NCBI GenBank assembly: GCA_038851035.1
Contig: JAWCLH010000010.1
Coordinates: 1 to 45,262, forward strand
Origin: Thermoplasmata archaeon
Lineage (GTDB): Archaea > Thermoplasmatota > DTKX01 > VGTL01
DNA: 45,262 nucleotides
Direction: 5' to 3'
Shown: positions 5,026 to 42,493 of the stretch, piece after piece
Numbering within the stretch: position 1 is the first letter of the stretch
How the letters are laid out: each line of letters starts with the position of its first letter
Translations under genes and position numbers: made by a program
The notes under the pieces: model-generated
Databases searched by the model: none
Seen by the model: only the letters and a program-made list of their open reading frames with translations
What the model was told of the DNA's origin: nothing

Positions 5026-5102
5026 ATATAGTCGCATACACAGATGCCGGCGGGAAACGGGATGATTCGCGGCGCGGGTCCGGTGGAGCGGGGGGTTTGC
5101 GC

Positions 5103-5933
5103 ATGATCGAGCGGGTCAAGACCGGCGTCGATGGCTTGGACGAGCTTACCGGCGGGGGCCTCCCCGCAGGCGCTGTGACTCTCGTGAGTGGCCCCGCGGG
5201 CAGCGGGAAGAGCCTCCTGTGCCTCCATTTCGCCTGCCAGGGCGCGGTGCGAGAGGGCGAACCAGCTCTCTACATCTCACTGGAAGAGAGCTCGGAGAGC
5301 ATCTCCCGGGCCCTCTCGTGCTACAAAATCTGCGAGCGCTCCCCGTTTGAAAACGGCAGGCTCACCATAATGGACATGGGCTGGCTGCGGAAGAGGCTCA
5401 TCGAGGGCGGGCCGGGATTGGGGCTGGCCAGGCTCGAGAGCATCTGGAAAGAGGGGAGGTCCTACTTGGTCAGCACCGACTGGATGAGGGAGGAGGCGCA
5501 GGTCGAGAGCGAGCTCGAGGCGGGCATGGTCGGCTTCAGGACGCTGGAGGCCGCCATTGACCACTTCTCCTCGGAGAATGGGATGAAGAGGCTGGTCATC
5601 GACTCGATAGCCGCGGTAGGCCTCTACTACCTCAGGCCCGAGGAGCTCAGGAGGGAGCTCTTCAGGTTCGGCAGGTTCCTGAGGGACAGGGGGGTCTCCT
5701 CGATGGTTGTCACCGAATCCCCTAGCCCGGCCCACGGCCAGACCAGGTACGGCATCGAGCACTTCATCGCCGACACCCACATCGTCCTGGGCATCAGGAC
5801 CCTCAGGGGCGAGTCGAGGAGGACGATTCAGGTGCAGAAGATGCGCTTCGGTACCCACGACAGTGGTATCCATCCCTTCACGATAACCGAAAGGGGAATC
5901 GAGATCAACACGAGGGAGTATATCAGGTATTGA
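5103..5933 (+). CDS. KaiC-like RecA-superfamily ATPase, single domain
   Basis: A 276-residue soluble ATPase of the KaiC/RAD55 (COG0467) group. The P-loop GPAGSGKS is at residues 30-37, the paired acidic residues YISLEES at 58-64, and the Walker B strand RLVIDSIAA at 163-171. A C-terminal segment (RRTIQVQKMRFGTHDSG) resembles the R-K-RG-type ending of KaiC domains. The ATG at 5103 is chosen over an in-frame TTG six bases earlier. The stop is 13 bases before the giant DUF835 protein, which has its own GGAGG, so the two form an operon and probably act together. KaiC-like proteins often act as ATP-driven switches in signal transduction; the partner here is a membrane protein with a large cytoplasmic region. 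The precise role is unknown. Confidence 0.88.
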   Translation: MIERVKTGVDGLDELTGGGLPAGAVTLVSGPAGSGKSLLCLHFACQGAVREGEPALYISLEESSESISRALSCYKICERSPFENGRLTIMDMGWLRKRLIEGGPGLGLARLESIWKEGRSYLVSTDWMREEAQVESELEAGMVGFRTLEAAIDHFSSENGMKRLVIDSIAAVGLYYLRPEELRRELFRFGRFLRDRGVSSMVVTESPSPAHGQTRYGIEHFIADTHIVLGIRTLRGESRRTIQVQKMRFGTHDSGIHPFTITERGIEINTREYIRY

Positions 5934-5946
5934 GGCGGAGGCCGGG

Positions 5947-8900
5947 ATGAAGTTCGTGCTGGAGCAGGGCGTAACATACCTGGTCAAGGAGCCCAAGCCA
6001 GACAGCTCCTTCTCCCTCTTCTCATCGCTGGTGAAGGGGGGCGCGCGTGGGTTCTGTATAACTCGCGTTCACCCCAAAAGAATACGCAAGAAGTACGAGC
6101 TTGGAGACACCCAGATGCTCTGGATAACCACGAGCGAGATCCCCGACGAGAGGTGCGTGCACCCGTCGGACCTCGCAAAGCTCAACATAGCGATAAGCGA
6201 GGCGCTGAAGAACCCGGAGAACCTGGTGATTCTGCTCGAGGGCATAGAGTACTTGATCACATACAATGGCTTCGACTCTATTCTGCGCTTTGTGCAGAGA
6301 ATCAATGACCTAGTGATGGTGACGGGGTGCAGGTTCATCATAACCCTCGACCCCGCCACGCTCGACACGGGCAGCCTGCACATACTGGAGAGGGATCTGA
6401 TTCCCATAGAGGACCCGAACAAGCTCGAGTTGGCGGCGGGGGCCCCGGAGGCCGCCACGGAGGAGCGAGCGGAGCTTTGGAGGAGGCCCCTCGAAGAGAA
6501 GCTCGTCGGCTGGAGGCAGAAGGGCTTCTCTACCGAGGCGCTGGAGAGGGCGCTCGAGGCCGGGAGGGAGGAGGCCCTGAAGGCCTTCGAGCAGTTCGAG
6601 GCCTCCGTGGCGCGGGCCGAGGCTATAGAGAGGGAGCTCAGGGCGATGGACTTGACTGGTCTCGAGGCCGAGGCCGATAGGGTCCGGGCGAAGCTCCGCA
6701 ACCCGGCGACGGTCAAGGAGGCCGAGGACGAGTTCCTGGTTCTGCAGATATCGCTCGAGAGGAGGAGGAAAGAGGAGCAGAGGCGGAGGGCGGAGGAACA
6801 GCGCCTGAGGGAGGCGATCGAGGCTCGGATAAAGGAGTGGGGGGAGCAGGGTTATGACGTATCGCCCCTCAAGGCGCTATCCGGAGCGCCCTACGAGGAG
6901 CTCAGGGCCGAGTTCGAGCGCTTCGAGGCAGCGATTCAGAGGCTCCGGGAGCTCAGGGAGGAGCTCTTGCTTATGGACACCACGGGCTTCGAGGGAGAGG
7001 TCGAGGCGATAAAATCGCGCTTGATGTCGCCCGCGCGTGTGAGCGAGCTCGAGGATGACATCTTCAGGCTGAAAATACTCATCGAGAGGCACAGGAAGGA
7101 GGAGAGGAGGAGGAAGGAGGAGGAGGAGCGCGCCCGGGCCGAGCTTGCGTCGAAGATAGAGGCCTGGAAGGCGGAGGGGTTCGACGTCTCGGGGCTGCAG
7201 GGGTGGGAAGGTTGGCCACTGGAGAGGGCCAGGGAGGCAGTCGCGGCCTTCGAGAGGGACGTGGCTGAGCTGAAGAGGCTCGAGGGAGAGTTGGCCCTCC
7301 TCCCCCTGAAGGATGCGGATGCCGAGCGGGCGAGGCTGATGCCCCTCCTCAGGCACGTCTCCAAACTCAAGGAGGCGCGCGCGGAGCTGGCCCGTCTCAG
7401 GAGCATGGTCGAGAAGAGCGGGGAGGAGCTACAGCGGGAGGAGTACCTGAGGAAGATAGAGGAGTGGCGCGCACTCGGCTACAATGTCGAGAGGCTGAAA
7501 GAGCTCGAGAAGGGGGACCTGGCGGCGCTGCAGAAGGAGTTCGTTGTGTTCAAGATTCGGGTCCACAGGCTCAACGAGCTGAAGGGCGAGCTTGGTCTCA
7601 TAGACACCACAGGCTTAGAGGCCGAGGTGGCAGCGCTCGAGCCGCTGTTCAGGGACGTGAACAAAATTCCTGAGCTGGAGGCGAAGCTCACCGAGCTGAG
7701 GCTGAGGGCGAGGGCCCGGCTCGAGGAGGCCCGGATTAAAAAGGAGGAGGTGGCGAGGCTCAAGTCGGAGCTCGTCGAGAAGATGTCGGTCTGGGCCTCG
7801 CAGGGCTTCTCCGTCAGCAAGCTCGAGGAGCTGATGGAGAGGGAGAGGGACTTGGAGAAACTGAGAGCCGAGTTCGACGCCTTCGAGACTGCCGTTGTCA
7901 GGCTAAGGGAGTTGCGCGCGAGGCTGAGGGCACTCGACACCAAGGGCTTCGAGAAGGAGCTCTCAGAGGTCGAGAGCCTCCTCAACGACCCCGCCAAGGT
8001 CCAGGCGGCCGAGGGTGCGGTCGCGGCTCTCGAGAGGCTCATCGAGACCCGACGCGACGAGGCGAGGAGGCAGGCGGCGGAGGAGGAAAGGTGGAAGAGG
8101 AAGGCTCAGGAGAAGATACAGGCCTGGAAGTCGCGGGGGATACGCGTCGATATGCTGGAGCGGGCCTTGCAGGAGGGCGTCGAGCCCTTCAAAAAGGCCC
8201 TCTCGGACTTCAGCCTTAGGCTGGAGAGGCTCAGGGGGCTGACGGAGGAGTTCAAGACTCTCGACACGAGGGGGCTCGAGACCGAGGCCGAGGCCGTCAA
8301 GGAGAGGCTGGGCGATATAGAGAATGTGGAAGGGGCGGCGTGTGCGCTCGAGGAGCTGAAGGCGAAAATTGCTGAGAGGGAGGAGAGGGAGAGGAGGGAG
8401 AGGGAGGAGCGTAGGCTCGAGAGGGAGGCCTACGCGAAGAAGCTCATTGAATGGGCCTCGAGAGGCCTCGCAGTCGACAGACTTGAGAAAATCATCGATG
8501 GCGACATCGCTCTCGTGAGAGCGGAGTTCGAGAGGTTCGAGAACGGCCTGAAGAGGCTTGAGGAGCTCAGGGCCGCCCTCGCAAAAATGGACGTGTGCGG
8601 ATTTGAGGCCGAGGCGGAGGCGCTCGGGGCGAGGCTCAACCGGCCCGAACTCGCTGACGAGCTCGCGAGGGAATTGGAGGAACTGAGGGAGAGGGTTGAG
8701 AAAAAGAGGAGGGAGGAGGAGGCGAGGCTGGCGGAACTTAGAGCGAGGGTCGACGCGTGGGCGAGGGAGGGCCTACACGTCGAGAGGCTGCGCGAGGCGG
8801 AGAAAAAGGGTCTGGCCGAGCTCGAGGCCTCCGTTGCTGAGTTCGAGAGGGGACTAGCGGAGCTGCGCAGGCTCGAGGAGATGCAGAGGGAACTCAGGGC

Positions 8901-9936
8901 AAAGCTGTTCAGGGAGGCGGCGGCTGGGGAGCCGGCGCGGGCCCCACCGCCCCGGCCGGCGAAGGTGGTGCGGAAAAGAAAGAGAGCAAGGGCCGCGGGC
9001 ACGCCGGCGGCGACAGCCTGTGTCGGCGAGGGCGAGGAGGTGAAAGCCGCCAGGGCGGAGGAGGGCGAGGAGGAGGCGAGGGAGGAGGCTGGGCTGGAGG
9101 AGGAGGAGCGGAGGGAGGTCGGGGAGGCGGAGAGGGAGGTGGAGGAGGAGGCGCGCGAGATAAAGAGAATCGCGGGCTTAGCGATGGGGACCGTGGAGGA
9201 AAAGGAGGAAGCGAGCGCGGGCGCGGCTAGAGAGGCACCGGAGGCGGAAGGGGCGGGGAGGGGAGTGGCGAAGGTGGAGGAGGCGGGGGTGGAGAGGAGG
9301 TCCGCGGCGCGCCGGAGGCGCAGGAGCGCCCTGCTCGCCGCGCTCGTGGCGGCGATCGCGGTCTCCGGGATATACCTCGCGCTTTTCTATCACCCCGTTT
9401 CTGCAGCGCCGGGAGCGCCCGTGATAGATGGGAAATTCGCGGATTGGTCTAGCGTCCCGAAGCATCTGGACCCCCCGGGCGACCAGCCGCTCAACCCGGG
9501 AATCAACATCGTCGAGTGGGCGGCGCTCTCGAAGGAGGGCTCACTTTATGTCTATATCAGAACCCAGGGCAACATTCTCAGCGGTGCAAAGAATTCGACG
9601 ACGAAGATGTACGACTACGACATCTTGCGAATCTATCTGGACGCCGACCTGAGCGCCGCCACGGGCTTCCAGGTCGGGGGCGTGGGAGCAGAGTACATGG
9701 TCGCGATCATCGGCTGGGAGAACAAGGCGCAGGAGATGAGGTACTACTCCTTCACCGACAACCTGACGAGTCCGTGGCTGCCCCTGTCCGTGAGCGGCCT
9801 GACGACAATGAGGGCGTCGGGCAGGGAGCTAGAGGTCAGGGTCAGGTTCAGCGACCTCGGCGAGGAGAGCCTCTCACCCAATCTTATCGTCATCGAGCTC
9901 AGCGACGCTGCGGGGAGCTACGACCGCACGGAGTGA
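5947..9936 (+). CDS. Giant DUF835/Trp-repeat membrane protein with external domain
   Basis: A 1329-residue protein with five parts. Residues 1-155 match DUF835 (LVILLEGIEYLITYNGFD followed by RFVQRINDLV and ITLDPATLD). Residues about 180-985 form eight helical repeats of about 109 residues; each has one Trp followed by a Gly and aromatic or aliphatic residue (W189, 298, 407, 507, 616, 727, 836, 938). Most also carry an MDTTGFE-like motif about 45 residues later. Residues about 1025-1115 are acidic and low-complexity. A run of Arg precedes a single membrane helix (about 1127-1147). Residues 1148-1329 form an external beta domain (VIDGKFADW, LDADLSAATG, GAEYMV) like the CBM9-type domains of the next protein. 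The basic run predicts a cytoplasmic N-terminus. It likely links an external ligand-binding domain to the KaiC-like ATPase coded 13 bases upstream. Confidence 0.85.
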   Translation: MKFVLEQGVTYLVKEPKPDSSFSLFSSLVKGGARGFCITRVHPKRIRKKYELGDTQMLWITTSEIPDERCVHPSDLAKLNIAISEALKNPENLVILLEGIEYLITYNGFDSILRFVQRINDLVMVTGCRFIITLDPATLDTGSLHILERDLIPIEDPNKLELAAGAPEAATEERAELWRRPLEEKLVGWRQKGFSTEALERALEAGREEALKAFEQFEASVARAEAIERELRAMDLTGLEAEADRVRAKLRNPATVKEAEDEFLVLQISLERRRKEEQRRRAEEQRLREAIEARIKEWGEQGYDVSPLKALSGAPYEELRAEFERFEAAIQRLRELREELLLMDTTGFEGEVEAIKSRLMSPARVSELEDDIFRLKILIERHRKEERRRKEEEERARAELASKIEAWKAEGFDVSGLQGWEGWPLERAREAVAAFERDVAELKRLEGELALLPLKDADAERARLMPLLRHVSKLKEARAELARLRSMVEKSGEELQREEYLRKIEEWRALGYNVERLKELEKGDLAALQKEFVVFKIRVHRLNELKGELGLIDTTGLEAEVAALEPLFRDVNKIPELEAKLTELRLRARARLEEARIKKEEVARLKSELVEKMSVWASQGFSVSKLEELMERERDLEKLRAEFDAFETAVVRLRELRARLRALDTKGFEKELSEVESLLNDPAKVQAAEGAVAALERLIETRRDEARRQAAEEERWKRKAQEKIQAWKSRGIRVDMLERALQEGVEPFKKALSDFSLRLERLRGLTEEFKTLDTRGLETEAEAVKERLGDIENVEGAACALEELKAKIAEREERERREREERRLEREAYAKKLIEWASRGLAVDRLEKIIDGDIALVRAEFERFENGLKRLEELRAALAKMDVCGFEAEAEALGARLNRPELADELARELEELRERVEKKRREEEARLAELRARVDAWAREGLHVERLREAEKKGLAELEASVAEFERGLAELRRLEEMQRELRAKLFREAAAGEPARAPPPRPAKVVRKRKRARAAGTPAATACVGEGEEVKAARAEEGEEEAREEAGLEEEERREVGEAEREVEEEAREIKRIAGLAMGTVEEKEEASAGAAREAPEAEGAGRGVAKVEEAGVERRSAARRRRRSALLAALVAAIAVSGIYLALFYHPVSAAPGAPVIDGKFADWSSVPKHLDPPGDQPLNPGINIVEWAALSKEGSLYVYIRTQGNILSGAKNSTTKMYDYDILRIYLDADLSAATGFQVGGVGAEYMVAIIGWENKAQEMRYYSFTDNLTSPWLPLSVSGLTTMRASGRELEVRVRFSDLGEESLSPNLIVIELSDAAGSYDRTE

Positions 9937-10236: not shown

Positions 10237-12927
10237 ATGGGCGATGAAAAAAGCGGTGAGAGGAAGGCGAACGGGGACAGCGAGAGAGGACCGCCGCAGC
10301 CACCGCTTCCGCCCGTTCCCGAGCCGGAGCCGCTGAGGGATTTTGAGATCAGGGATATGGTAGAGGAGTACATGAGGTCCAGAGAAGGGCAGCTCGAGGC
10401 GGCGGACGCGGAGGAGGTCGAGGAGGGGGGAGGGGAAGGGAGACTTGAGGGAAAATTGGGGGACGAGGGAGCCGCGAGGGCGGAGGAGGAGGCTGGTGGA
10501 AAAGCCGCGGAGAGGGGAGCCGCGGAGGCGGAGGAGGTCGTGGAAAAACCGGCGGAGGGGGAGGGCGCGAAAGAACCGGCAGAGAGAAGGGTCGTAGGAA
10601 TGGGGGAGGGAGTGGGGGAAGTCCCGACCGGCGGGGAGATGGCCAGAGCGGCGGAGGGGACGGAGGGTGAGAAGGAACAGGCTGCGACGAGCGAGCTAAC
10701 GCCGAGGGCTGTGAGAAAGCTCACATTGAGTAACCGCGGGGGTCCACCCGGCGGCGGAGCACCGGAGAGCTCCGGACTAATCAATGGAAGGGGCCCTGCA
10801 ACACCGGAAGCACCGCGCAGAGCCGAGGCTGGCGGCATGGTGAACCGCCGAGGGCGCGGCATGGTCAATGGTCTCGTGAACGGCCGGAGGGGCGCTGTGA
10901 ATGGCCTCGTCAACGGCGTCCCCCGCGCCCGCAGGGGTCTGGTCAATGGGGCACTCGTCAACGGCGAGGGCGCGCGGAACGGCCGCGGCATTATCAACGG
11001 GCGTGGCGTCATCAATGGCGAGGGCCTGACCAACGGAAGAAAAATGGGAATTCAGGAGCTCCCCCCACGCGAGAGCCGCACGGGCGCAAAGCTTGTGGTG
11101 GCGGTGGCGGTTGTGGCGGTCGTTCTGATTCTCCTCGCGCTCTACCTCATTCCCCTAATGGCCGGGAAGGGGATGAGCGTGGACGGCGTCTTCTCCGACT
11201 GGGAGGGCGTGCGCAAATACCACGATGAGGTCCAGGACCAGCCCAACCCACAGGTCAACATCCTCGAGACCGCACTCCAAATCGGCCAGCAGGACGCATT
11301 CTTCTATGTGAGGGTTGAGGGGAAGATGCTCGGCGGGAGGGGGGGAGGAGTCGACAGCGTGTGCATATTCGTTGACGCCGACCGCAACCCGCTCACCGGG
11401 TATCCTGTCGGGGGCGCCGGGGCGGAGAGCGTGCTCGTCGTCGATGGGTGGGATGGAAGGGTTCAGAGCTGCGGTCTCTATAGGTTCGGAAAAGACGCAT
11501 CGAGGCCCACGGCCGACTGGAACTCGAAGTCCCCCTCGGGCCCGGGTCGCGCAGCCGTGAGCGGGTCCCAGCTAGAGACGCAGGCACCGCTGAAGGAGCT
11601 CGGCGTCGAGGGTAAGCAGAGACTCAACGTGCTGGTCTGCACACGGGACGGCTCGGGCGCTGAGGACCTCTCGCTGGTCATGGGCACCGATAGAGCCGCC
11701 CTCAAAGCGGTCTGGACGACGACAGGCCCCGAGAGGGTGGAGCCCGGAGCTGCGGGCGTGGAGATGCTAAGAATCGAGCTCAGCGCCGAGGGTGGCAGCG
11801 CAACTGTCTCGGGCCTCAACATAACCCTCGCGGGTGCCGGGGGCGGCGCGTGGGCCGACAGGGTTTCCCTCGTCTCGGCCGCGGGCTTCGAGCTCCCCGG
11901 CTCATCGACCGTGCCCTCAGGGGGGAGGGCCGTCCTGCGCATCCAGCCGCCGCTCGAGGTTCCAACCGCGGGGGCCGTCGTCCTGAAGGTAGCTGTGTCG
12001 CTCTCGGCCGGCGCGCAGAGGGGAGGGGCGGTGGGGCTCGGCATCGCCTCGCCGGCCGACATTCAGGCGAACACCAAGGCCGTGACGCTCCAGGCCTTCC
12101 CCTCCAGATTGAGCTACATCGGAACACCCGCGGCCGGGATAGTGGTCGACGGCGCTTTCGCCGATTGGGACGGAAAACCCTCCCACCCCGACCCCACCCA
12201 AGACGCGGAAAACCCGAACATAGACATCTCAGACTTCCGCACCGCCAGCGACGGCTCCTCGCTCTTCTTCTGCATCGCCGTGCGCGGCGAGATGATGGGC
12301 GGAGTCCTGATACCGGAGCTCAAGGCCAGACCCTCGGGGCCGGGCGGCGGAGGGGGCGGGGGGCCTGTGCAGCTGCCCGTGCTCGTCGGTCAGGACGTTT
12401 TCTATGTTTTCATAGACACCGACTTCAACAGCAACACAGGATATAGCGGCGGCCTGCCCTTGGGAGCTGAATACATGGTCAGTGTGGCGGGCCGGTCTGG
12501 AGTCATTGTGTCGCGGACCGTGCACAGATTCGAGGGTGGGAGCGCGAGGCACGAGTGGCGGTGGAGCCCCGGGACGGAAATCGAGGCCGCGAGGGATCTT
12601 TCGAGGCTCGAGGCCGGCGTCCCCCTGACCGCGATCGGCTCGCCCTCTGGCAACATCAGCCTCTTCTATTACAGCACTGACTGGAGGAAGGATAAGGATA
12701 CAGGCGACAGGGTGGAGCACGACCTCGGTGCGGGCAGGAGCGCGGGGCCCGGCAGGGCTTGTGATTCCGCAACGACAACCGACGAGCCCGACGCACCCCA
12801 GCCACTAGACCCGGAACCATTGCACGCCCCCGAGTTTGGAGAGATGCTCGCTCCCATCTCCGGAGCCGTTGTTATTTTCGCCGTGCTCCGGAGGCTTCGG
12901 CGGAAAGTGGATTCATCCAATCGTTGA
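10237..12927 (+). CDS. Membrane protein with Asn-Gly repeats, two external beta domains and a PEFG-like tail
   Basis: A protein of 896 residues from the ATG (a TTG lies two codons earlier). The N-terminal 165 residues are Pro- then Glu/Ala/Gly-rich and look disordered. Residues about 180-268 hold about a dozen units of the type (M/L)VNG, IING, AVNG or LTNG joined by Gly/Arg. A membrane helix follows (about 286-308), then two external domains that each begin like VDGVFSDWEGV or VDGAFADWDGK and contain IFVDADRNPLTGY or VFIDTDFNSNTGY plus GAE(S/Y), resembling CBM9-like beta sandwiches and the external domain of the preceding protein. Between them is a beta-rich segment. The last 35 residues (APEFGEMLAPISGAVVIF then RRLRRK) look like a PEF/PEFG-type sorting signal: motif, hydrophobic helix, basic end. 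The function is unknown; surface binding with a repeat-rich cytoplasmic tail is the likely arrangement. Confidence 0.82.
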   Translation: MGDEKSGERKANGDSERGPPQPPLPPVPEPEPLRDFEIRDMVEEYMRSREGQLEAADAEEVEEGGGEGRLEGKLGDEGAARAEEEAGGKAAERGAAEAEEVVEKPAEGEGAKEPAERRVVGMGEGVGEVPTGGEMARAAEGTEGEKEQAATSELTPRAVRKLTLSNRGGPPGGGAPESSGLINGRGPATPEAPRRAEAGGMVNRRGRGMVNGLVNGRRGAVNGLVNGVPRARRGLVNGALVNGEGARNGRGIINGRGVINGEGLTNGRKMGIQELPPRESRTGAKLVVAVAVVAVVLILLALYLIPLMAGKGMSVDGVFSDWEGVRKYHDEVQDQPNPQVNILETALQIGQQDAFFYVRVEGKMLGGRGGGVDSVCIFVDADRNPLTGYPVGGAGAESVLVVDGWDGRVQSCGLYRFGKDASRPTADWNSKSPSGPGRAAVSGSQLETQAPLKELGVEGKQRLNVLVCTRDGSGAEDLSLVMGTDRAALKAVWTTTGPERVEPGAAGVEMLRIELSAEGGSATVSGLNITLAGAGGGAWADRVSLVSAAGFELPGSSTVPSGGRAVLRIQPPLEVPTAGAVVLKVAVSLSAGAQRGGAVGLGIASPADIQANTKAVTLQAFPSRLSYIGTPAAGIVVDGAFADWDGKPSHPDPTQDAENPNIDISDFRTASDGSSLFFCIAVRGEMMGGVLIPELKARPSGPGGGGGGGPVQLPVLVGQDVFYVFIDTDFNSNTGYSGGLPLGAEYMVSVAGRSGVIVSRTVHRFEGGSARHEWRWSPGTEIEAARDLSRLEAGVPLTAIGSPSGNISLFYYSTDWRKDKDTGDRVEHDLGAGRSAGPGRACDSATTTDEPDAPQPLDPEPLHAPEFGEMLAPISGAVVIFAVLRRLRRKVDSSNR
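10774..11040 (+). repeat. Asn-Gly repeat tract inside the coding region
   Basis: This part of the gene encodes about twelve units of a four-residue pattern, hydrophobic-Val/Ile-Asn-Gly, separated by Gly, Arg, Glu and Ala. Codons for the repeated residues vary (aat/aac, ggt/ggc/gga, gtg/gtc/ctc), so the pattern is kept at protein level and is not a recent DNA slippage product. It ends about 20 residues before the membrane helix. Confidence 0.85.
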
Positions 12928-14526: not shown

Positions 14527-15309
14527 ATGCCTGAGAAGGGCGGCGGGGAAGAGGGCTTCGCGCAGGATCTGCTCAGCGCGATTGAGAGCGAGGTCAGGGG
14601 TTCGCGGAAGAGGGTAAAAACCTTCGTGAACGGCTTCGACGAGGTTCTCGAAGGCGGAATTCCTAAGGGCCACGTGGTTCTGATTGCAGGCTCCGCTGGG
14701 ACGATGAAGTCCTCGCTCGCTTACAGCATCCTATACAGGAACGCACTCGAGGAGGGCAGCAAGGGTCTCTACCTCTCCCTCGAGCAGAACCGGCAGTCGC
14801 TCGAGGACCACATGTACGGCCTCGGCTTGAATTTGCAGAAGGTGGCGGGAAAGGTCGAGATATGGGATCTGGGTCTCCTGCGCTCCAAGCTGATATCGGG
14901 CGAGACCTGGCTCAACCTTCTCAAGAAGGACATCGCGGACCACAAGGCGCGCAACGGCCTAGACCTCGTCGCTCTTGACAGTCTGCCCGCGCTCGACATC
15001 ATCGCCAAGTACAAGGACCCGCGAGAGGAGCTATTCTATTTCTTCGAGTGGCTCAGGGAGCTGGGGGTGACATCCCTCCTGATATCGGAGATGGTCGAGG
15101 GAGTTCTGAAGTACAGCAAGAACGACGAGGACTTTCTAGCGGACGGAATCATCCACCTGAAGATGCAGTTCGTGGACGATGTGCACGTCCAGAGGCGCAT
15201 ACGTGCTGTCAAGATGAGGAACACCAAGCATAGCCTGGACTTCTACACTCTGCTCTTCGAGAACGGCAGATTCTCGATAACTAAGGTCATCGGAAAGGTG
15301 CAGGAGTGA
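14527..15309 (+). CDS. KaiC-like/RAD55-family ATPase
   Basis: A 260-residue single-domain ATPase of the KaiC/RAD55 group. The P-loop is the variant GSAGTMKSS (residues 55-63, K61), typical of archaeal KaiC-like proteins, and the Walker B strand LVALDS is at 147-152. The paired catalytic acids are E86 followed by Gln (SLEQ), so the second Glu of the usual pair is missing and activity may be altered. A short charged N-terminal extension precedes the domain. The C-terminal KMRNTKH segment matches the conserved end of the fold. It is preceded by its own promoter and followed by 388 bases without a gene, so it is probably a single-gene unit. A signalling or regulatory ATPase is likely; the partner is not evident, although the KaiC/DUF835 pair lies about 5-9 kb upstream. 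Confidence 0.87.
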   Translation: MPEKGGGEEGFAQDLLSAIESEVRGSRKRVKTFVNGFDEVLEGGIPKGHVVLIAGSAGTMKSSLAYSILYRNALEEGSKGLYLSLEQNRQSLEDHMYGLGLNLQKVAGKVEIWDLGLLRSKLISGETWLNLLKKDIADHKARNGLDLVALDSLPALDIIAKYKDPREELFYFFEWLRELGVTSLLISEMVEGVLKYSKNDEDFLADGIIHLKMQFVDDVHVQRRIRAVKMRNTKHSLDFYTLLFENGRFSITKVIGKVQE

Positions 15310-29995: not shown

Positions 29996-32734
29996 ATGGA
30001 AACGCTCCTTGAGAAGCACTGGCACCACCTGCCCGCGCACGAGGTAATCACGCTGCTGGGCACGAGCCCCGACCGGGGGCTCGAGGATTCCGAGGCCCGG
30101 AGGAGGCTGGAGCGCTTCGGCCCCAACAAGCTCACGCCGAGAAAAAAGAAGAGCCCGGTGGTCCGCTTCCTGATGCAGTTCAAGAGCCCCCTGATATATA
30201 TTCTCCTCGTCGCGGGGGTGGTGACCGCGATCCTCCGCGAGTACGTCGACTCCGCTGTGATTCTCGCCGTCGTTCTGGTCAACGCCGTCGTCGGGTTCGT
30301 TCAGGAGGCGAAGGCGGAGCGCGCGATAGAGGCGCTGGCAAAGACGATAACGGCGGAGGCGACGGTCCTGCGCTCCTCCCGGCTCAGGCGCGTGCCAGCG
30401 ACCGAGCTGGTGCCGGGCGACATCGTAGTTCTGGAGAGCGGCGACCGCGTCCCCGCGGACCTCCGCCTGCTCCAGACGAGCGAGCTCCAGATCGCCGAGG
30501 CCGCCCTGACGGGCGAGTCCGTCCCGGTGCCCAAGTCAGCGGACTGCGCCCTCCGGCCCGATACGGTGCTCGCCGACCGCTGCAACATGGCCTACGCCTC
30601 GACGCTGGTGACCTCGGGCCGCGGGACCGGCGTGGTCGTCTCGACGGGCGACGACACCGAGGTCGGCCGGATATCGGAGCTCATAACGAGGGCCGTCAGC
30701 CTCGAGACCCCCCTCACGCGCAAGATCGCCCAGCTGAGCCGACTTCTATTGGTGCTTGTGCTGGGGCTCGCCATCGTCACCTTTGCCATCGGCACCCTCC
30801 GGGGGGAGCCTGTGATAGACATGCTGATGACCTCCATAGCTCTGGCTGTGGCTGTCATACCCGAGGGCCTGCCCGCAGCCGTTCTCATAACGCTGGCCAT
30901 AGGAGTCTCGCGCATGGCCCGGCGAAACGCGATCATCCGGAAGCTTCCGGCCGTCGAGACGCTCGGCAGCACCACAGTGATCTGCTCAGACAAGACCGGG
31001 ACGATGACTCAGAACCGGATGACGGTCCAGAGGGTCTGGACGGTGGCGGGGGAGTATGAGGTCACCGGTGCCGGGAATTCTTTCGAGGGGGAGTTCCGGA
31101 GGGCTGGGGGCCGGCCCGGCGGGGATGCCGTCAGGGAGGACGCGGCGCTCGCCGAGTGCCTGAGGGCCGGCGCGCTCTGCAACAGTTCCGGGCTGATCGA
31201 GCAGGGGGGTCGGCTCGAGGTCCGGGGGGACCCAACAGAGGGCGCCCTGCTCATAGCGGCCGGGAAGGCGGGCCTTGCGCCGGAGCGCCTCGCGAGGGAG
31301 ATGCCGAGGGTCGATGTCATTCCCTTCGAGCCGGAGCGGATGTACATGGCGACCCTCCACGGGCTCCCCCACGGGACGAGAGGGTACATGAAAGGGGCCG
31401 TGGAGGTCGTCCTCGAGCGCTGCTCGGGCGCGATGGGTCCGGACGGCAGGCCCGCGGCTCTCGACCCCAGGGCCGTGAGGGCCGTGGCGGAAGGGATGGC
31501 TGCGAGCGGCCTCCGCCTCCTCGCACTGGCGACGAAGGACTTTCCCGCCGGGCACACGAGGCTCCAGCCTGAGGACCTGCGGGGCTCATGGATCTTTCTG
31601 GGGCTACAGGCGATGATCGACCCGCCGAGGCCCGAGGCGATCAGGGCCGTGAGGGCGTGCAAGGAGGCCGGGATAGAGGTCAAGATGGTCACAGGCGACC
31701 ACGCGCTCACGGCGGCCGCAATCGCCCGCAGAATCGGCCTCGGGAGAGGGGACGGCGGTGAGCTGAGCGTGCTGAGCGGCAGAGAGCTGCAGGAGATGGG
31801 CAATGGCGAGCTCGCGGAACGGGCCGCGAAAACCGCGGTCTTCGCCAGGGTCAGCCCGGAGCAGAAGCTCAGGCTCGTGGAGACGCTGCAGTCCCGCGGC
31901 GAGGTGGTCGCCATGACGGGCGACGGCGTGAACGACGCCCCCGCGCTCAAGAGGGCCGACATCGGAATCGCGATGGGCCTGAGCGGAACGGACGTCGCCA
32001 AAGAGACCGCGGACATGGTGCTCCTGGACGACAACTTCGCCACCATAGAGGCGGCTGTGGAGGAGGGCAGGGGTGTCTTCGACAACCTCACGAAGTTCAT
32101 CGTCTGGACCCTCCCGACTAATGTGGGCGAGGGGCTCTTGATCATGGCGGCGGTGCTCGCGGCGCTCCAGCTGCCCGTGACACCCGCTCAGATACTCTGG
32201 ATAAACACGACCACGGCCATCGCCCTCGGCACCACGCTCGCGCTCGAGGCGAAGGAGCCGGACATAATGCGCAGGCCCCCGAGGCACCCCGCCGCGCCGA
32301 TAATAACTAGGGCCCTTCTGGCCAGAACGGCCCTTGTGGGCGGTCTCATGCTCGCCGGTGCCTACTGGCTCTTCTGGCACGAGCTCTCCGAGGGTGCGAG
32401 CGTCGCCGCGGCCCGCACCGTCGCCGTTAACGTGGTCGTGTTCACCGAGCTCTTCTACCTCTTCAACTGCCGCTCGCTCACCCACCCCATGACCCGCGTC
32501 GGCGTGCTCTCCAACCGCTGGACCTACATCGGGGTCGCGTCCATGGTCCTGCTCCAGCTCGCGATCACATACATTCCGGCGATGAACGCCGCGTTCGCCA
32601 CCGCGCCCGTCGGCGCCCTTTCGTGGGCAAGGGTGTTCGCGATCGGCCTCTCGGTCTTCATCATTATGGAAATCGTGAAGTGGGCGGAGAGGAGGCTGGC
32701 CGCTTGGCAGCCGGCACCCCCGCCGGCTCGCTGA
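29996..32734 (+). CDS. P-type cation ATPase with atypical ion site
   Basis: A 912-residue P2-type cation pump. An N-terminal cation ATPase domain (HWHHLPAHEVITLLGTS) is followed by the TGES actuator loop, the VIPEGLP fourth helix, the phosphorylated Asp (D332 in SDKTGTMT) and the hinge TGDGVNDAPALK. Of the SERCA calcium ligands it keeps the Glu of PEGLP and the fifth-helix Glu (TNVGEGLLI). The sixth-helix Asp is Ala: the motif reads ILWINTTTAIALG in place of NxxTD. It is therefore not a standard Ca2+ pump; Na+, K+, H+ or another cation is possible. The ATG at 29996 (weak GGGAG upstream) is chosen because the frame further upstream is Arg/Gly/Ser-rich and overlaps the divergent promoter. Confidence 0.92.
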   Translation: METLLEKHWHHLPAHEVITLLGTSPDRGLEDSEARRRLERFGPNKLTPRKKKSPVVRFLMQFKSPLIYILLVAGVVTAILREYVDSAVILAVVLVNAVVGFVQEAKAERAIEALAKTITAEATVLRSSRLRRVPATELVPGDIVVLESGDRVPADLRLLQTSELQIAEAALTGESVPVPKSADCALRPDTVLADRCNMAYASTLVTSGRGTGVVVSTGDDTEVGRISELITRAVSLETPLTRKIAQLSRLLLVLVLGLAIVTFAIGTLRGEPVIDMLMTSIALAVAVIPEGLPAAVLITLAIGVSRMARRNAIIRKLPAVETLGSTTVICSDKTGTMTQNRMTVQRVWTVAGEYEVTGAGNSFEGEFRRAGGRPGGDAVREDAALAECLRAGALCNSSGLIEQGGRLEVRGDPTEGALLIAAGKAGLAPERLAREMPRVDVIPFEPERMYMATLHGLPHGTRGYMKGAVEVVLERCSGAMGPDGRPAALDPRAVRAVAEGMAASGLRLLALATKDFPAGHTRLQPEDLRGSWIFLGLQAMIDPPRPEAIRAVRACKEAGIEVKMVTGDHALTAAAIARRIGLGRGDGGELSVLSGRELQEMGNGELAERAAKTAVFARVSPEQKLRLVETLQSRGEVVAMTGDGVNDAPALKRADIGIAMGLSGTDVAKETADMVLLDDNFATIEAAVEEGRGVFDNLTKFIVWTLPTNVGEGLLIMAAVLAALQLPVTPAQILWINTTTAIALGTTLALEAKEPDIMRRPPRHPAAPIITRALLARTALVGGLMLAGAYWLFWHELSEGASVAAARTVAVNVVVFTELFYLFNCRSLTHPMTRVGVLSNRWTYIGVASMVLLQLAITYIPAMNAAFATAPVGALSWARVFAIGLSVFIIMEIVKWAERRLAAWQPAPPPAR

Positions 32735-32772
32735 TGCGTTCCCCCGCCCCGGGGGCCAACCGCTCCGGCGAA

Positions 32773-32781
32773 ATATTATAT
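32773..32781 (+). promoter_or_regulatory. TATA box of the CPA2 antiporter gene
   Basis: The sequence atattatat lies in the 78-base gap after the P-type ATPase, centred 36 bases before the ATG at 32813 and 21 bases before the alternative GTG at 32798. Confidence 0.45.
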
Positions 32782-32812
32782 TGAATGTCGGCGATACGTG
32801 GGCCGGAGGCCG

Positions 32813-34087
32813 ATGGAGAGCATAGTCTTCGTCGAGATATTCGCCATTTTCTTCATGGCGAAGCTCGCGGGCGAGCTCTTCGAGCGGCTGCGCCAGCCCC
32901 CGGTGGTCGGGGAGCTGCTGGTCGGCATCGTCGTGGCGAACACCTTCGTCTTCGACATGCTACACCTGAAAGAGAACATGGGGTACTTCGAGTTCCTTGC
33001 GGAGCTCGGGGTCATGATTCTCCTTTTCTCCGTGGGGCTCGAGACGCCCCTCCACCAGCTCTCGAAGGTCGGAATCGTCTCTACGATGGTCGCGGTCTTC
33101 GGGGTGCTCGTGCCCTTCGGGCTGGGGTTCGCGTACATCCTCGCTATCAACGGCTCCTACAGCGAGGCGATGTTCATCGGGGCCGCGATGGTCGCGACGA
33201 GCGTGGGCATAACGGCGCGCGTGCTCGCCGACCTCGGGGTAACGGGGGCGCTTGAGTCGAGGGTCATTCTGGGGGCCGCCGTGATAGACGACGTCCTCGG
33301 AATGATTGTCCTGACCATCGTCAGCGGCATGGCGGGCGGAGACCGGACGCGGCTAGAGAGCGGGGAGCACGTCCTGCTCGAGACGGCGCTTGTGATAGCG
33401 ATAGCCATCGCGTTCGTGGTCGGGGCGATGCTGCTCGGCGGCAGAATCGTGCGCAGGCTCGCGGGCGGCGACGCCCCCGCGCGGGGCAGGGCGCCGGCCC
33501 GGGGCTCGCGCAGGGACCACCTCGCCGCGCTCCGCCAGCGCAACGCCCCCTTCGTCGTCGCGCTGGTGCTGTGCTTCGGGCTCTCGGCGGTGGCGAGGTA
33601 TCTGGGCCTTGCGGCGATAATCGGGGCCTTCGTGGCCGGAATGGCCTTCGCCGAGGTCAGGGAGAGGTACCACCTGCGCGAGAAGATGGACCCGGTCAAC
33701 GACCTCCTGGCGCCGTTCTTTTTCGTACATATAGGGCTGATGGTCCACGTCTCCGACTTCCAGCCCGTGATAGGAGTGGCGGTCGTCATCACGATTCTCG
33801 CAATCGTCGGGAAGCTCGTGGGCTGCGGCCTCGCGGCGCTCAGGCTCGGCCCGGGGCCCGCCGTTGTCGTCGGGGTCGGGATGGTCCCGAGGGGCGAGGT
33901 CGGCATTATCGTGGCGATGGTGGGCCTATCCCTCCACACGATTCCCAACAGCATGTTCACCGTGGTCGTCTTCATGTCCATAGCGACCACGCTCCTCGCG
34001 CCGCCCCTTCTTGTCTGGGCCTTCAGGAGGGCCCACCCCTCCCAGCCCGCTCCGGCCTCGGGCGCGTGCCTGGAGAAAAAAAGATGA
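32813..34087 (+). CDS. CPA2-type cation/proton antiporter (KefB/NapA-like)
   Basis: A 424-residue polytopic membrane protein of the monovalent cation:proton antiporter-2 family. The early motif RQPPVVGELLVGIVV and LLFSVGLETPL are typical. The ion-binding pair is Asp-Asp (VIDDVLGMIVL), as in electrogenic NapA/KefB proteins. Later helices contain FFVHIGLMV and GMVPRGEVGIIVAM. A hydrophilic, Arg/Ala/Pro-rich loop sits mid-protein (RRLAGGDAPARGRAPARGS). No C-terminal TrkA_N domain is attached, so it is not a full KefC-type channel. The ATG at 32813 is preferred over a GTG at 32798. It would exchange Na+ or K+ for H+ and lies between two P-type pumps. Confidence 0.9.
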   Translation: MESIVFVEIFAIFFMAKLAGELFERLRQPPVVGELLVGIVVANTFVFDMLHLKENMGYFEFLAELGVMILLFSVGLETPLHQLSKVGIVSTMVAVFGVLVPFGLGFAYILAINGSYSEAMFIGAAMVATSVGITARVLADLGVTGALESRVILGAAVIDDVLGMIVLTIVSGMAGGDRTRLESGEHVLLETALVIAIAIAFVVGAMLLGGRIVRRLAGGDAPARGRAPARGSRRDHLAALRQRNAPFVVALVLCFGLSAVARYLGLAAIIGAFVAGMAFAEVRERYHLREKMDPVNDLLAPFFFVHIGLMVHVSDFQPVIGVAVVITILAIVGKLVGCGLAALRLGPGPAVVVGVGMVPRGEVGIIVAMVGLSLHTIPNSMFTVVVFMSIATTLLAPPLLVWAFRRAHPSQPAPASGACLEKKR

Positions 34088-34103
34088 AAGAGCCCCGGGG
34101 GCC

Positions 34104-35402
34104 CTAAAGAGCGTACCTGATGACGAGAAGAATATTGCAGGTGATGAGGGCCAGGACTGTCGCGGGAACCGCGGCCCCACAGTACTCGCGCCACGTGACC
34201 CTCACCCCGCACCTCTCCATCTGCGAGAGGCCGACGATGTTGGCCGAGGCCCCGATGGGCGAGGCACTGCCCCCGATGTCGCAGCCCAGGCACGAGGCCC
34301 ACGCGAGGGCCCCGAGGCCTATGCCCGTGCTCCCGGAGAGGGAGCGGATGATGGGGACCATGGCGGCGGCGAGGGGGACGTTGTCTATGAGGGCCGAGAA
34401 CACGGCCGCGGTCCACAGGATGATGGTGACGGCGAGGGCAGTGCTCCCGCCGGAGAGAAAACCTATCGCGCCCGCGAGGTCCGCGGTGACGCCCGTCCTC
34501 TCCAAACCCCCGACGATGATGAACAGGCCCCCGAAGAAGATTATCGTCCTGTAATCAAGCCTCTCCAGCATGTCCGGGAACTTTCCGCCGCTGGAGAGCA
34601 TCGTGAGGACGGCTCCGAGAATTCCGATGAAGGCCACTGAGATTTTGAGGAAGTTGTGGAGCACGAGCAGGGCCATCGAGAATATGAATATGCCCAGGGT
34701 GATGTGCATCGTTCTGGCGTCCCTTATCGCGGTCTTCGGGGGGGGCCTGAGGTATCTGAAGGCCTTCATGAACTCGACGGAGTCTACCTTGCATCTCGCG
34801 AATGTGCTCTTGAAGCACAGGTAGAGGACAAAAAGGTTCACGATGAACGCCGCCACCGCCAGCGGTCCCGTGTTTAAGACGAAGTCGCTGAAGGAGTAGT
34901 GGAGGGCCGTCCCGATGACGATGTTGGGCGGGTCTCCGACCATAGTGGCGCTGCCGCCGATGTTGGCCGAGGTGATCTCGCCGAGGATGAAGGGGAGCGG
35001 GGAGACCCTGAGAATTCTGGTTATCTCCATGGTCAGGGAGACCATAAACATTAGAACCGTTATACTGTCCATGAAGGCGGCGAGGAAGGCCGAGAGGGCG
35101 GAGAAGAGGACGAAGAGCCTGAGAACCCTGAACCGCGCCATCATTAGCGTCCTCAAACCTATCCACTTGAAGAATCCGACCTCCCTGAGCACATGAATCA
35201 TGACGAACATCCCGAATATCAGGCCCAGCGCTTCCCAATGCACGGGGCCGCGCGGGTCCAGAACGTCCTCCGGGCTCAGGATGCCCAGAGCCAGCACTGC
35301 CATCGCCCCCATCATCGCTACCAAAGCCCTCTGAATTCTCTCTGTGGCGATGAGCACAAGACAGGCCGCGAGTATGGCCACCGCCAGCGCCTTGTCGTAC
35401 AA
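34104..35402 (-). CDS. ArsB/NhaD-type ion permease
   Basis: A 432-residue membrane transporter of the ion transporter superfamily (ArsB/NhaD/P-protein type) with about eleven helices in two inverted halves. Each half has a conserved motif region: EITSANIGGSATMVGDPPNIVIG (about residues 146-168) and ALIDNVPLAAAM with CDIGGSASPIGASANIVG (about 345-400). Members include arsenite permeases and Na+/H+ antiporters; the substrate cannot be decided here. No arsR or arsC gene is nearby, while Na+/H+ and K+ genes are, so ion exchange is somewhat more likely. The start is a TTG at 35402 with no alternative ATG close by. It is convergent with the CPA2 gene and divergent from the next ATPase. Confidence 0.88.
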   Translation of the reverse strand: MYDKALAVAILAACLVLIATERIQRALVAMMGAMAVLALGILSPEDVLDPRGPVHWEALGLIFGMFVMIHVLREVGFFKWIGLRTLMMARFRVLRLFVLFSALSAFLAAFMDSITVLMFMVSLTMEITRILRVSPLPFILGEITSANIGGSATMVGDPPNIVIGTALHYSFSDFVLNTGPLAVAAFIVNLFVLYLCFKSTFARCKVDSVEFMKAFRYLRPPPKTAIRDARTMHITLGIFIFSMALLVLHNFLKISVAFIGILGAVLTMLSSGGKFPDMLERLDYRTIIFFGGLFIIVGGLERTGVTADLAGAIGFLSGGSTALAVTIILWTAAVFSALIDNVPLAAAMVPIIRSLSGSTGIGLGALAWASCLGCDIGGSASPIGASANIVGLSQMERCGVRVTWREYCGAAVPATVLALITCNILLVIRYAL

Positions 35403-35494
35403 ATCGCCGCACCCGGCCCCGTTCCACGACTTTCTCCGGTAATGAGCCGGGCGTCTATTAAATCTGTCGAGAATAGTGCGCCCTGCCCAATCGG

Positions 35495-35503
35495 TTATTT
35501 ATA
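35495..35503 (+). promoter_or_regulatory. TATA box of the SPCA-like ATPase gene
   Basis: The sequence ttatttata is centred 27 bases before the GTG at 35526, indicating a leaderless mRNA and deciding the start. A minus-strand TATA candidate (gatttaatag, about 35454-35463) in the same gap would serve the divergent permease. Confidence 0.6.
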
Positions 35504-35525
35504 CTGCGGCGGCGATTTCAGCTCC

Positions 35526-38258
35526 GTGGCCGACCTCCCTTGGCACACCCTCGGCCCGCTCGAGGCCCTTGAGAGGCTAGGGAGCAGGCTCCAGGGCCTG
35601 GGCGCGGAGGAGGCGAGGGAGAGGCTCGGGAGATATGGCGCGAACCTCCTGCGCGAGGCCCCGAGGCCCGGGCCGCTGAGGCGGTTCGCTATGCAATTCG
35701 CGAGCGCGCCCATATTGATGCTGATAGCCGCCATTGTGATTCTGCTGGCGCTGACCGTGTTCTTCGGCGAGTCGCACGTGACGGACGCGGTCGTGATATT
35801 CATAGTGATTTTCGTCAACGCCCTTATGAGCTTTATACAGGAGTCGAAGGCGCAGAAGGCGATGGACGCACTCCGCAAGCTGACGAGCCCCAAGGCCAAG
35901 CTCAGGAGGGAGGGGAGGGCGCTCGAGCTCGACGTGGCGGAGGTGGTTCCCGGGGACATCCTCCTCCTCGAGGAGGGGGACAAGGTCCCCGCCGACGCGA
36001 GGGTCCTCTCTTCCCACAACCTCGAGGTGAATGAGTCGATGCTCACCGGGGAGTCGGTGCCCGTGCGAAAAGAGCCCGACGCGGTCATCGAGGAGGGTGC
36101 CATGCTCCAGGAGAGGGTGAACATGGTCTACGCCGGTACCGTGGTCACCCGGGGGAGGGGCGAGGCCGTAGTGGTGGCGACGGGAATGGAGACCGTGATG
36201 GGCAGAATCGCGCGGCACATCCAGACGGACGAGCCCACGCCCCTCCAAAAGAGACTGGCCTCGCTCAGCAGGCAGCTCGGCGTGATCGCAATCGCGGCGG
36301 TCGTGGTCCTCTTCCTCCTCGACCGCCTCGCCCGGACCCACTCGCCGCTGGTCGACAGCTTCCTGCTCTCCGTGAGCCTAGCGGTCGCGATGATTCCAGA
36401 GGGGCTTCCGATAGTCACGCTCGTCACCCTCGCGGTCGGGATGCAGGTGATGGCTGCGAGGAAGGCTGTCGTCAGGAAGATGATGGCGGTCGAGACCCTC
36501 GGAAGCACGACATTCATCTGCACCGACAAGACCGGTACCCTGACCCGGAATGAGATGACGGTCGCCGAGATGCACATCGGCGGGAGAAGGTACACCCTGA
36601 CCGGGACAGGCTACGGGCCCGAGGGCAAGATTCTGGATGGCGAAAGGGAGGCGGACGCAACCGGGCCCCCGCTGGTCGATGCTCTTCTTGTGATGGCCCT
36701 GTGCAACGACTCCCATCTCGTTCAAAGGGGCGGGCGGTGGGAGGTCATTGGTGACCCGACCGAGGGCGCCCTGCTCAGTGTCGTGGGCAAGGCCGGCCTC
36801 AACCCCCGCGAGCTCATGCAGCGCCACCTCCGCTGCGGCGAGAAGGTCTTCGACCCCCGGCGCAGGATGATGACGACCGTGCACAGAATCGGCGGGAGCG
36901 TCAGGGCCTTCGTCAAGGGAGCGCCCGAGGTCCTTGTCGAGCTCGCCGGCGCAGTGCAGAAGGGGGAGAAGGCCCTCCCGATAACACCGGAGCTCAGGCA
37001 GGAGCTCATCGAGCTCAACGCCTCGTTGGCGTCGCGAGGCTTCCGCGTTCTCGCGCTCGGGACCCGCGAGCTCCCGGAGGGCTGTGACTTCGAGGCCGAG
37101 GGCGTAGAGAGGGGCCTCACGTTCCTAGGACTCGTGGCCATCCGGGACCCGCCGAGACCGGAGGTCGCTGAGGCCGTGCGCAGGTGCCGCGAGGCTGGCA
37201 TCAGGGTGGTCATGATAACCGGCGACCAGAGCGACACCGGCCGGTCCGTTGCGCGCGAGCTGGGAATTCTCCAAGGCGGCGGTCTCGTCCTGACGGGCTC
37301 GGAGCTCGAGAAGCTCTCGGAAGAAGAGTTCGAAAGAATAGTCGAGAATGTGAGGGTCTACGCGCGAGTCTCGCCAGAGCACAAGCTCAGAATCGTCCGG
37401 GCACTGCAGAGGAGGGGGCAAGTCGTGGCGATGACCGGTGACGGTGTCAACGACGCCCCCGCGCTGGCGAGGGCCGACATCGGTGTGGCGATGGGCCTCT
37501 CCGGGACGGACGTGGCTCGCGAGGCCAGCGACATGGTCCTGATGGACGACAACTTCAGCTCGATAGTGGCAGCGGTGGAGGAGGGGAGAAGGATATACGA
37601 CAACATAAGGAAGTTCATCAGGTACCAGCTCAGCACGAACGTGGGCGCGATATTTCTGATTTTTGCGGCGACGGTGGCGCTCCTGCCGGCGATTCCCCTC
37701 TACCCGGTCCAGATTCTCTGGGTCAATATTCTGATGGACGGGCCCCCCGCGGTGGCGCTGGGGCTCTCGCCCGGCAGCCCCGCGCTGATGAGGAGGAAGC
37801 CGAGGGACCCTGAAGAGAAGATTCTGACTCCGGAGCTGCTCAGGGCGGTCGCGTTCAACGGCTGCGTCATGGGCCTGCTGGCCTTCCTACTATTCTGGTG
37901 GGACATCGGCCGCGGCTCCGGAGCGAGGCACGCCCAGACCCTGACGTTCACGGCCTTCGTGGTCTACCAGATGTTCAGCGTCTTCAACTGCAACTCCTTG
38001 AGGAGGAGCGCGATCAGCGGCGAGGTCCGGAGGAACCCCTTCCTGCTCGTCGCGGTCGTGGTCTCTCTCCTGCTCCAGCTCGCAGTGGTCTACCTGCCCC
38101 CCATCAACCCCTTCTTCCACACCGTGCCGCTGGGCGCGAGCGATTGGGCGCTGATTCTCGGGACGGGAATTCTCGTGCTCGCAATCGAAGAGGCGAGGAA
38201 GGCGGCGGTCCGCGCGCTCTCGCCGGAGCGGGCGGTCTCCGGCGCCCAGCTCGCTTAA
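35526..38258 (+). CDS. SPCA/PMR1-like Ca2+/Mn2+ P-type ATPase
   Basis: A 910-residue P2A-type pump. N-terminal cation ATPase domain (WHTLGPLEALERLGS), TGES loop, MIPEGLP in the fourth helix, phosphorylated Asp D334 in TDKTGTLT, and TGDGVNDAPALA. The ion-site residues match the single-site SPCA/PMR1 group and not SERCA: the fifth helix has NVGAIFLI (no Glu), and the sixth has ILWVNILMDGPPAVALG (Asn and Asp kept, Thr replaced by Met). Members export Ca2+ and Mn2+ from the cytosol. The GTG start at 35526 is chosen from the TATA spacing; the frame runs further upstream but there reads as antisense to the permease gene. It is followed 40 bases later by the first OPT transporter. Confidence 0.93.
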   Translation: MADLPWHTLGPLEALERLGSRLQGLGAEEARERLGRYGANLLREAPRPGPLRRFAMQFASAPILMLIAAIVILLALTVFFGESHVTDAVVIFIVIFVNALMSFIQESKAQKAMDALRKLTSPKAKLRREGRALELDVAEVVPGDILLLEEGDKVPADARVLSSHNLEVNESMLTGESVPVRKEPDAVIEEGAMLQERVNMVYAGTVVTRGRGEAVVVATGMETVMGRIARHIQTDEPTPLQKRLASLSRQLGVIAIAAVVVLFLLDRLARTHSPLVDSFLLSVSLAVAMIPEGLPIVTLVTLAVGMQVMAARKAVVRKMMAVETLGSTTFICTDKTGTLTRNEMTVAEMHIGGRRYTLTGTGYGPEGKILDGEREADATGPPLVDALLVMALCNDSHLVQRGGRWEVIGDPTEGALLSVVGKAGLNPRELMQRHLRCGEKVFDPRRRMMTTVHRIGGSVRAFVKGAPEVLVELAGAVQKGEKALPITPELRQELIELNASLASRGFRVLALGTRELPEGCDFEAEGVERGLTFLGLVAIRDPPRPEVAEAVRRCREAGIRVVMITGDQSDTGRSVARELGILQGGGLVLTGSELEKLSEEEFERIVENVRVYARVSPEHKLRIVRALQRRGQVVAMTGDGVNDAPALARADIGVAMGLSGTDVAREASDMVLMDDNFSSIVAAVEEGRRIYDNIRKFIRYQLSTNVGAIFLIFAATVALLPAIPLYPVQILWVNILMDGPPAVALGLSPGSPALMRRKPRDPEEKILTPELLRAVAFNGCVMGLLAFLLFWWDIGRGSGARHAQTLTFTAFVVYQMFSVFNCNSLRRSAISGEVRRNPFLLVAVVVSLLLQLAVVYLPPINPFFHTVPLGASDWALILGTGILVLAIEEARKAAVRALSPERAVSGAQLA

Positions 38259-38259
38259 G

Positions 38260-38268
38260 GTAATATAC
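38260..38268 (+). promoter_or_regulatory. TATA box of the first OPT gene
   Basis: The sequence gtaatatac begins right after the ATPase stop codon and lies about 33 bases before the TTG at 38298. Confidence 0.5.
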
Positions 38269-38297
38269 CCCGTGCACGATACCGCGCCGGCGAGGCC

Positions 38298-40370: not shown

Positions 40371-40386
40371 GCTCAATCAACAAGCG

Positions 40387-40395
40387 TTATATATT
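40387..40395 (+). promoter_or_regulatory. TATA box of the second OPT gene
   Basis: The sequence ttatatatt is centred 26 bases before the ATG at 40417. No Shine-Dalgarno is seen, which fits a leaderless transcript separate from the first OPT gene. Confidence 0.65.
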
Positions 40396-40416
40396 CACAT
40401 CAGTTATCGAGCAGCG

Positions 40417-42447: not shown

Positions 42448-42493
42448 ACGCTCCCGATACATCTATTAGGCCCTTCATATCTAGGTCTCAAGG

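Follow-up and report, generated by a model that had tools for sequence, protein, structure and literature searches.

The FG and GLFG nucleoporins carry many short glycine-hydrophobic motifs on a disordered, multivalent chain, and the hexapeptide repeats of left-handed β-helices have a six-residue period with one hydrophobic position. The Asn-Gly (NG) tract examined in this study, which belongs to a membrane protein of a Thermoplasmata archaeon, may be compared with both. Like the nucleoporins, it would present multivalent short motifs, although these consist of a β-branched residue and Asn-Gly instead of Phe-Gly and lie close to the membrane in a prokaryotic protein, and the likeness is meant as an analogy. 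The six-residue period would be the feature held in common with the left-handed β-helices, but the consensus of the tract is different, its AF2 models contained no solenoid, and ten consecutive GLTNGN units found no match among PDB sequences. The tract has no Pfam or NCBIfam assignment and no relative in the PDB, and no published description of it was found in the open-access literature, a scope that leaves aside preprints and most subscription papers.

The domains of the ectodomains start with a DGxFxDW motif and are predicted by AF2 to be β-sandwich-like, as in CBM9-like and glucodextranase C-type domains. The Pfam CBM9 model (PF06452) was matched by 1 of 51 such domains, at an E value of 0.17 that did not reach the gathering cut-off, and the window protein gave no match at E ≤ 1; the only PDB profile match of the ectodomain, the CBM9 xylanase 7nwn, was not significant (E 0.29). 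Foldseek returned sialidases, integrins and glucodextranase as top matches, glucodextranase (1ug9) being first for the second model at E 2.3e-6; the queries were multi-domain models, TM-scores stayed at or below 0.3, and the whole-model searches were dominated by multi-domain β architecture. The CBM9 likeness is a lead rather than a membership, and it concerns the ectodomain alone, with no bearing on the NG tract. The N-terminal part of the Firmicu-CTERM model (TIGR04145) was matched by 28 of the 51 domains at E ≤ 0.1 (best 3.8e-8), with whole-protein scores of 20.7 bits for the window protein and 27.5 bits for its sister, under the 50-bit cut-off; an NG tract and an N-in topology are not known from that family. 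The PEF-CTERM model (TIGR03024, cut-off 23 bits) gave 18.8 bits for L073 and no match for the window protein. Archaeal DUF835/KaiC gene clusters are a further point of comparison, since the window gene adjoins such genes, a set that also occurs in Thermoplasmatota, although the tract protein itself has neither a KaiC domain nor a DUF835 domain (PF05763), the latter being found only in the neighboring sister gene.

Features of the window gene

The features of the gene and of its neighborhood in the window, by which we mean the whole analyzed stretch of 45,262 nucleotides, are listed in Table 1.

Table 1. Position and supporting evidence of features in the window
Feature	Coordinates	Strand	Evidence
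KaiC-family ATPase, upstream	5097..5933	+	PF06745, E 6e-53
Sister protein: DUF835, coiled coil (about 900 aa), transmembrane helix and DGxFxDW domain, without NG tract	5947..9936	+	PF05763, E 2.9e-31
NG-tract membrane protein, 896 aa	10237..12927	+	ORF; homologue in G001:C22, 45% identical
N-terminal acidic/Pro-rich low-complexity region, aa 1-165, predicted cytoplasmic	10237..10731	+	Sequence; AF2-modeled part (from aa 150) unstructured
NG tract, aa 180-267, 11 NG units of G-x-[TVI]-N-G type	10774..11037	+	Sequence; homologous tracts
Basic juxtamembrane linker, aa 268-281	11038..11079	+	Sequence; positive-inside statistics of homologues
Transmembrane helix, aa 282-308, N-terminus inside	11080..11160	+	AF2 helix 133-159 of trimmed construct; hydropathy of homologues
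Ectodomain repeat 1, VDGVFSDW, CBM9/glucodextranase-C-like β domain	11158..11766	+	AF2 pLDDT >90; family alignment
Ectodomain repeat 2, VDGAFADW	12124..12732	+	AF2 pLDDT >90; family alignment
Short hydrophobic helix at the C-terminus, ending in basic residues (PEFG...LRRLRRK), probably a second anchor	12868..12921	+	Low-confidence AF2 helix 729-746; similar C-terminal ends in relatives
Second KaiC-family ATPase, downstream	14527..15309	+	PF06745, E 7.7e-40

An earlier note, made from the DNA letters, had described about twelve units. The tract proved real, with eleven NG pairs (ten [VIT]NG and one ARNG, at aa 183, 211, 215, 222, 226, 237, 242, 248, 254, 260 and 266) and a degenerate twelfth unit, MVNRR, near aa 203. 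Their spacing is irregular (4, 5, 6, 7 and 11), whereas the relatives show a clear hexad with 4-residue variants. The NG clustering is far beyond chance: shuffling the whole protein 2000 times gave usually 1-2 and at most 5 NG per 90 aa, and shuffling the 87-aa tract core itself gave a mean of 2.8 and a maximum of 9, compared with the 10 observed. As the same note had stated, the codons vary, with AAC used seven times and AAT four times for Asn and all four Gly codons in use; self-identity of the tract DNA (0.417) was no different from that under synonymous resampling of the gene (0.412).

The AF2 model, based on 43 sequences and a trimmed construct, was confident for the helix as well as for the ectodomains (pLDDT mostly >90). 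The gap between the end of the tract and the helix is about 18 aa (15-20), in agreement with the distance of some 20 residues noted before. The linker preceding the helix is basic and the residues following it are not. The tract itself adopted no fold in the models of either the window protein (pLDDT 30-41) or a protein with perfect hexads (27-33), although it may still become structured on assembly.

Architecture and distribution of homologous tracts

Four further genes in the same genome encode an NG tract followed by a helix and then DGxFxDW. Three spaced [TVIA]NG codon units were matched in 35 of 390 genomes of the phylum, including a few with different, collagen-like NG repeats, while the same pattern read backwards matched none of the 390. 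The collagen-like TNG/NGADG repeats (f17 and f25 genomes; L057, L060-L062, L096-L100) follow an N-terminal hydrophobic stretch, are presumably extracellular, and were set aside as unrelated to the juxtamembrane tract. A pattern search of GTDB r220 contigs, which may omit records of the window's own genome, was carried out with three G-[LIVMF]-[TVIA]-N-G-x hexads required. It returned 106 stretches, namely 88 archaeal reading frames and 18 bacterial stretches, the latter being mostly short simple repeats without a membrane helix directly after them. All 88 archaeal frames lie in records titled as Thermoplasmatota groups (Thermoplasmata, Thermoplasmatota, Methanomassiliicoccales, marine group III/Poseidoniia, DHVE2) or unspecifically as Euryarchaeota or archaeon. 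A viral origin was rejected, as viral contigs contained no tract match.

A helix was predicted to start within 40 aa after the tract in 68 of the 75 archaeal frames with enough downstream sequence, most often at 17-30 aa and most commonly at 22. In every one of these 68 frames, the linker on the tract side was more basic than the opposite side (mean K+R, 5.9 vs. 1.0; mean D+E, 1.6 vs. 5.0), which by the positive-inside rule places the tract in the cytoplasm, on the side that had been predicted for it. A DGxFxDW motif followed within 120 aa in 58 of the 68, and several others have variants such as IDNNFNDW. Some proteins have TPR, zinc-ribbon or HhH domains N-terminal to the tract and others have hardly anything there; in many, no more than 15 residues separate the tract from the first Met, so the tract is not simply an interdomain linker. 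In the f24 genomes (L091, L092 and L093) the tract is reduced to three units, GLVNGNSLVNG[RK]GVVNGLG, which follow helical repeat domains. Genome G035 has a single gene of this kind, and its tract is short.

Two exceptions show the tract to be a module that can move between architectures. In L148, the tract and helix precede a long ectodomain of GCMDxxAxNYNxxAxxDDGSCEY repeats without DGxFxDW, and in L125 the tract is part of a 170-aa protein with two helices. Conversely, DGxFxDW membrane proteins of two genomes, G009 and G020, have no NG tract, which makes the tract a trait of particular lineages. The finding that, according to the earlier note, would refute its reading, namely homologues lacking the tract or showing it with identical codons, was in the main not made, these two lineages being the part of it that held. 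In L021 and L030 of G020, an Asp/Glu-rich stretch occupies the place where the NG tract would sit.

Consensus and selection at the protein level

We collected 738 complete hexads from 97 distinct tracts fitting G-[LMIVFAR]-[TVI]-N-G-x. Position 3 was T, V or I in 738 hexads against 2 deviants, whereas position 2 was permissive (L, M, F, R, I or A, with V also in the pattern) and position 6 was N, R, T, L, S or K. The idea of an asparaginyl-endopeptidase site (NGL) was abandoned, since the position that follows NG shows no conservation. Asn was retained in about 97-98% of hexads; its commonest replacement was Asp, in 13 of the 21 identified deviants. Complete tracts have 3-21 units (median 9). 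Gaps between successive [TVI]NG included 6 (607 cases), 4 (74, spread over 24 tracts), 12 (33), 8 (15), 16 (13), 7 (13), 10 (8), 9 (7) and only two cases of 5; the prevalence of even values is in part a consequence of degenerate hexads, which give a spacing of 12.

The claim that the pattern is selected at the protein level was upheld. NG residues in nine close pairs, which are not all independent and in which sites were conditioned on NG in the first sequence, showed 36 synonymous and 0 nonsynonymous changes at approximately 113 synonymous sites and 397 nonsynonymous ones; L086 and L087 also have one N/D difference, which this conditioning does not capture. NG codons were identical in 27% of unit pairs of the same tract, compared with 75% in bacterial simple repeats.

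Tracts of one genome also have a dialect of their own. Among pairs with ectodomain identity below 40% and a GC3 difference below 0.05, the Jensen-Shannon divergence (JSD) of tract composition was 0.179 for paralogues of one genome and 0.367 between genomes (permutation p 0.0005 without GC matching), a difference that is partly confounded by slow divergence of the tracts once genes had duplicated within a lineage. Identical hexads of paralogues agreed in DNA in 0.2% of 2305 pairs in the genome with most paralogues, compared with 0.5% expected from random codon choice, and in 0.5% of 661 pairs (0.4% expected) in a second well-sampled genome; two smaller genomes showed a modest excess (7.6% vs. 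2.0% and 4.5% vs. 0.4%). A dialect common to paralogues at the protein level without DNA sharing argues against slippage and gene conversion. Taken together, these data show a juxtamembrane repeat on the cytoplasmic side that is conserved, is selected at the level of the protein, and is common to paralogues and to unrelated ectodomains.

Possible function of the tract

Multivalent association, either of the tracts with one another or through a shared partner, appears to be the most likely reading of these data. In Thermoplasmatota the tract is a protein module in its own right, placed some 22 residues from the membrane helix on the cytoplasmic face, and we tentatively propose that it serves multivalent self-association and so clusters surface proteins. 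Short β-type contacts, formed by the β-branched residue and the NG turn, would let the units of many anchored copies, and those of several paralogues per cell, pair with or stack against one another, and surface proteins with glycan-binding-like ectodomains would be held in clusters as the outcome. Association is favored by the fixed position before the helix with its uniform topology, by the strict consensus with T, V or I at position 3, by the lack of nonsynonymous NG changes, by the presence of the tract on unrelated proteins, and by a dialect that diverged paralogues have in common with no DNA sharing beyond random codon choice in the genome with most paralogues. The preference for a spacing of 4 over 5, and for even over odd spacings generally, fits a two-residue β register. 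Against it stand the DGxFxDW proteins without a tract, which show that it is dispensable in some lineages, and the foldlessness of the AF2 models. Of the stacked β structure suggested in the earlier note, self-association is thus still viable, while the stack was not borne out even by perfect GLTNGN tracts. A bolder version, in which the tracts of all paralogues co-assemble through a new Asn-Gly β repeat into a submembrane layer organizing the archaeal surface, that is, a membrane skeleton of surface-protein tails, seems improbable to us.

One shared partner would produce the dialect just as well, and so would a slow rate of tract change among lineage-specific duplicates. It is possible, if somewhat doubtful, that the units are short linear motifs to which a single soluble protein of the cytoplasm binds, such as a scaffold, a cytoskeletal element or an ATPase of the KaiC type, and that this protein would gather all tract proteins of the cell on a docking array. 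The consensus and the selection serve this reading equally well. KaiC-family genes flank the window gene, lie directly upstream on the same strand at L081, L083/L084 and L187, and occur within 3 kb of 18 of 113 tract genes, compared with an expectation of roughly 5%, which was derived from the 24 KaiC matches above the cut-off in 2.7 Mb. However, KaiC as an obligate partner was rejected since most neighborhoods are without it, and docking sites should tolerate odd spacings. It is unlikely that the tract is a passive, glycine-rich flexible stalk that keeps the N-terminus or cytoplasmic domains at a distance from the membrane: predicted disorder, variable length and membrane-adjacent position would suit a spacer, but the constraint far exceeds that of a linker, and many tracts have almost nothing N-terminal to hold. 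Asn-Gly is the pair most prone to deamidation, and a timer in which these bonds age to Asp or isoAsp and alter the protein, as the earlier note had considered, would account for Asp as the commonest replacement. We regard such a timer as very unlikely, because frequent N to D changes would be expected if Asp were functional, yet the high retention of Asn shows that Asp is no equivalent; moreover, deamidation needs neither T, V or I nor regular spacing, and PIMT occurs in tract-positive and tract-negative genomes alike. Replication slippage, or the recent spread of a functionless simple repeat, could explain why unit number differs between close relatives (L189/L180 and L162/L208) and why some units within a tract share DNA (4-26%), but it was rejected as hardly credible given the codon diversity, the conservation of the tract over many families of the phylum, the absence of nonsynonymous NG changes and the finding that paralogues of the best-sampled genomes do not share tract DNA.

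To our knowledge, little is known about the cytoplasmic-side organization of archaeal surface proteins, and a defined peptide, point mutants and a paralogue set offer a concrete handle on it. The repeat module, apparently undescribed and strictly constrained, is found throughout an archaeal phylum, with marine group III, DHVE2 and lineages assigned to Methanomassiliicoccales among its carriers, and one cell reuses it on different surface proteins. It is also a clear case of a low-complexity tract with demonstrable protein-level selection.

Many MAG contigs stop inside or just past the NG tract (L074, L075, L077, L079, L103-L105 and others), which suggests that the repeat breaks assemblies and is hence under-counted. 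The pairing of the sister gene with the tract gene is conserved in G001:C22 (L107). Elsewhere in the window, positions 30000-42450 appeared by eye to contain two P-type cation ATPase-like ORFs and two tandem paralogous multi-pass membrane proteins resembling OPT-type transporters.
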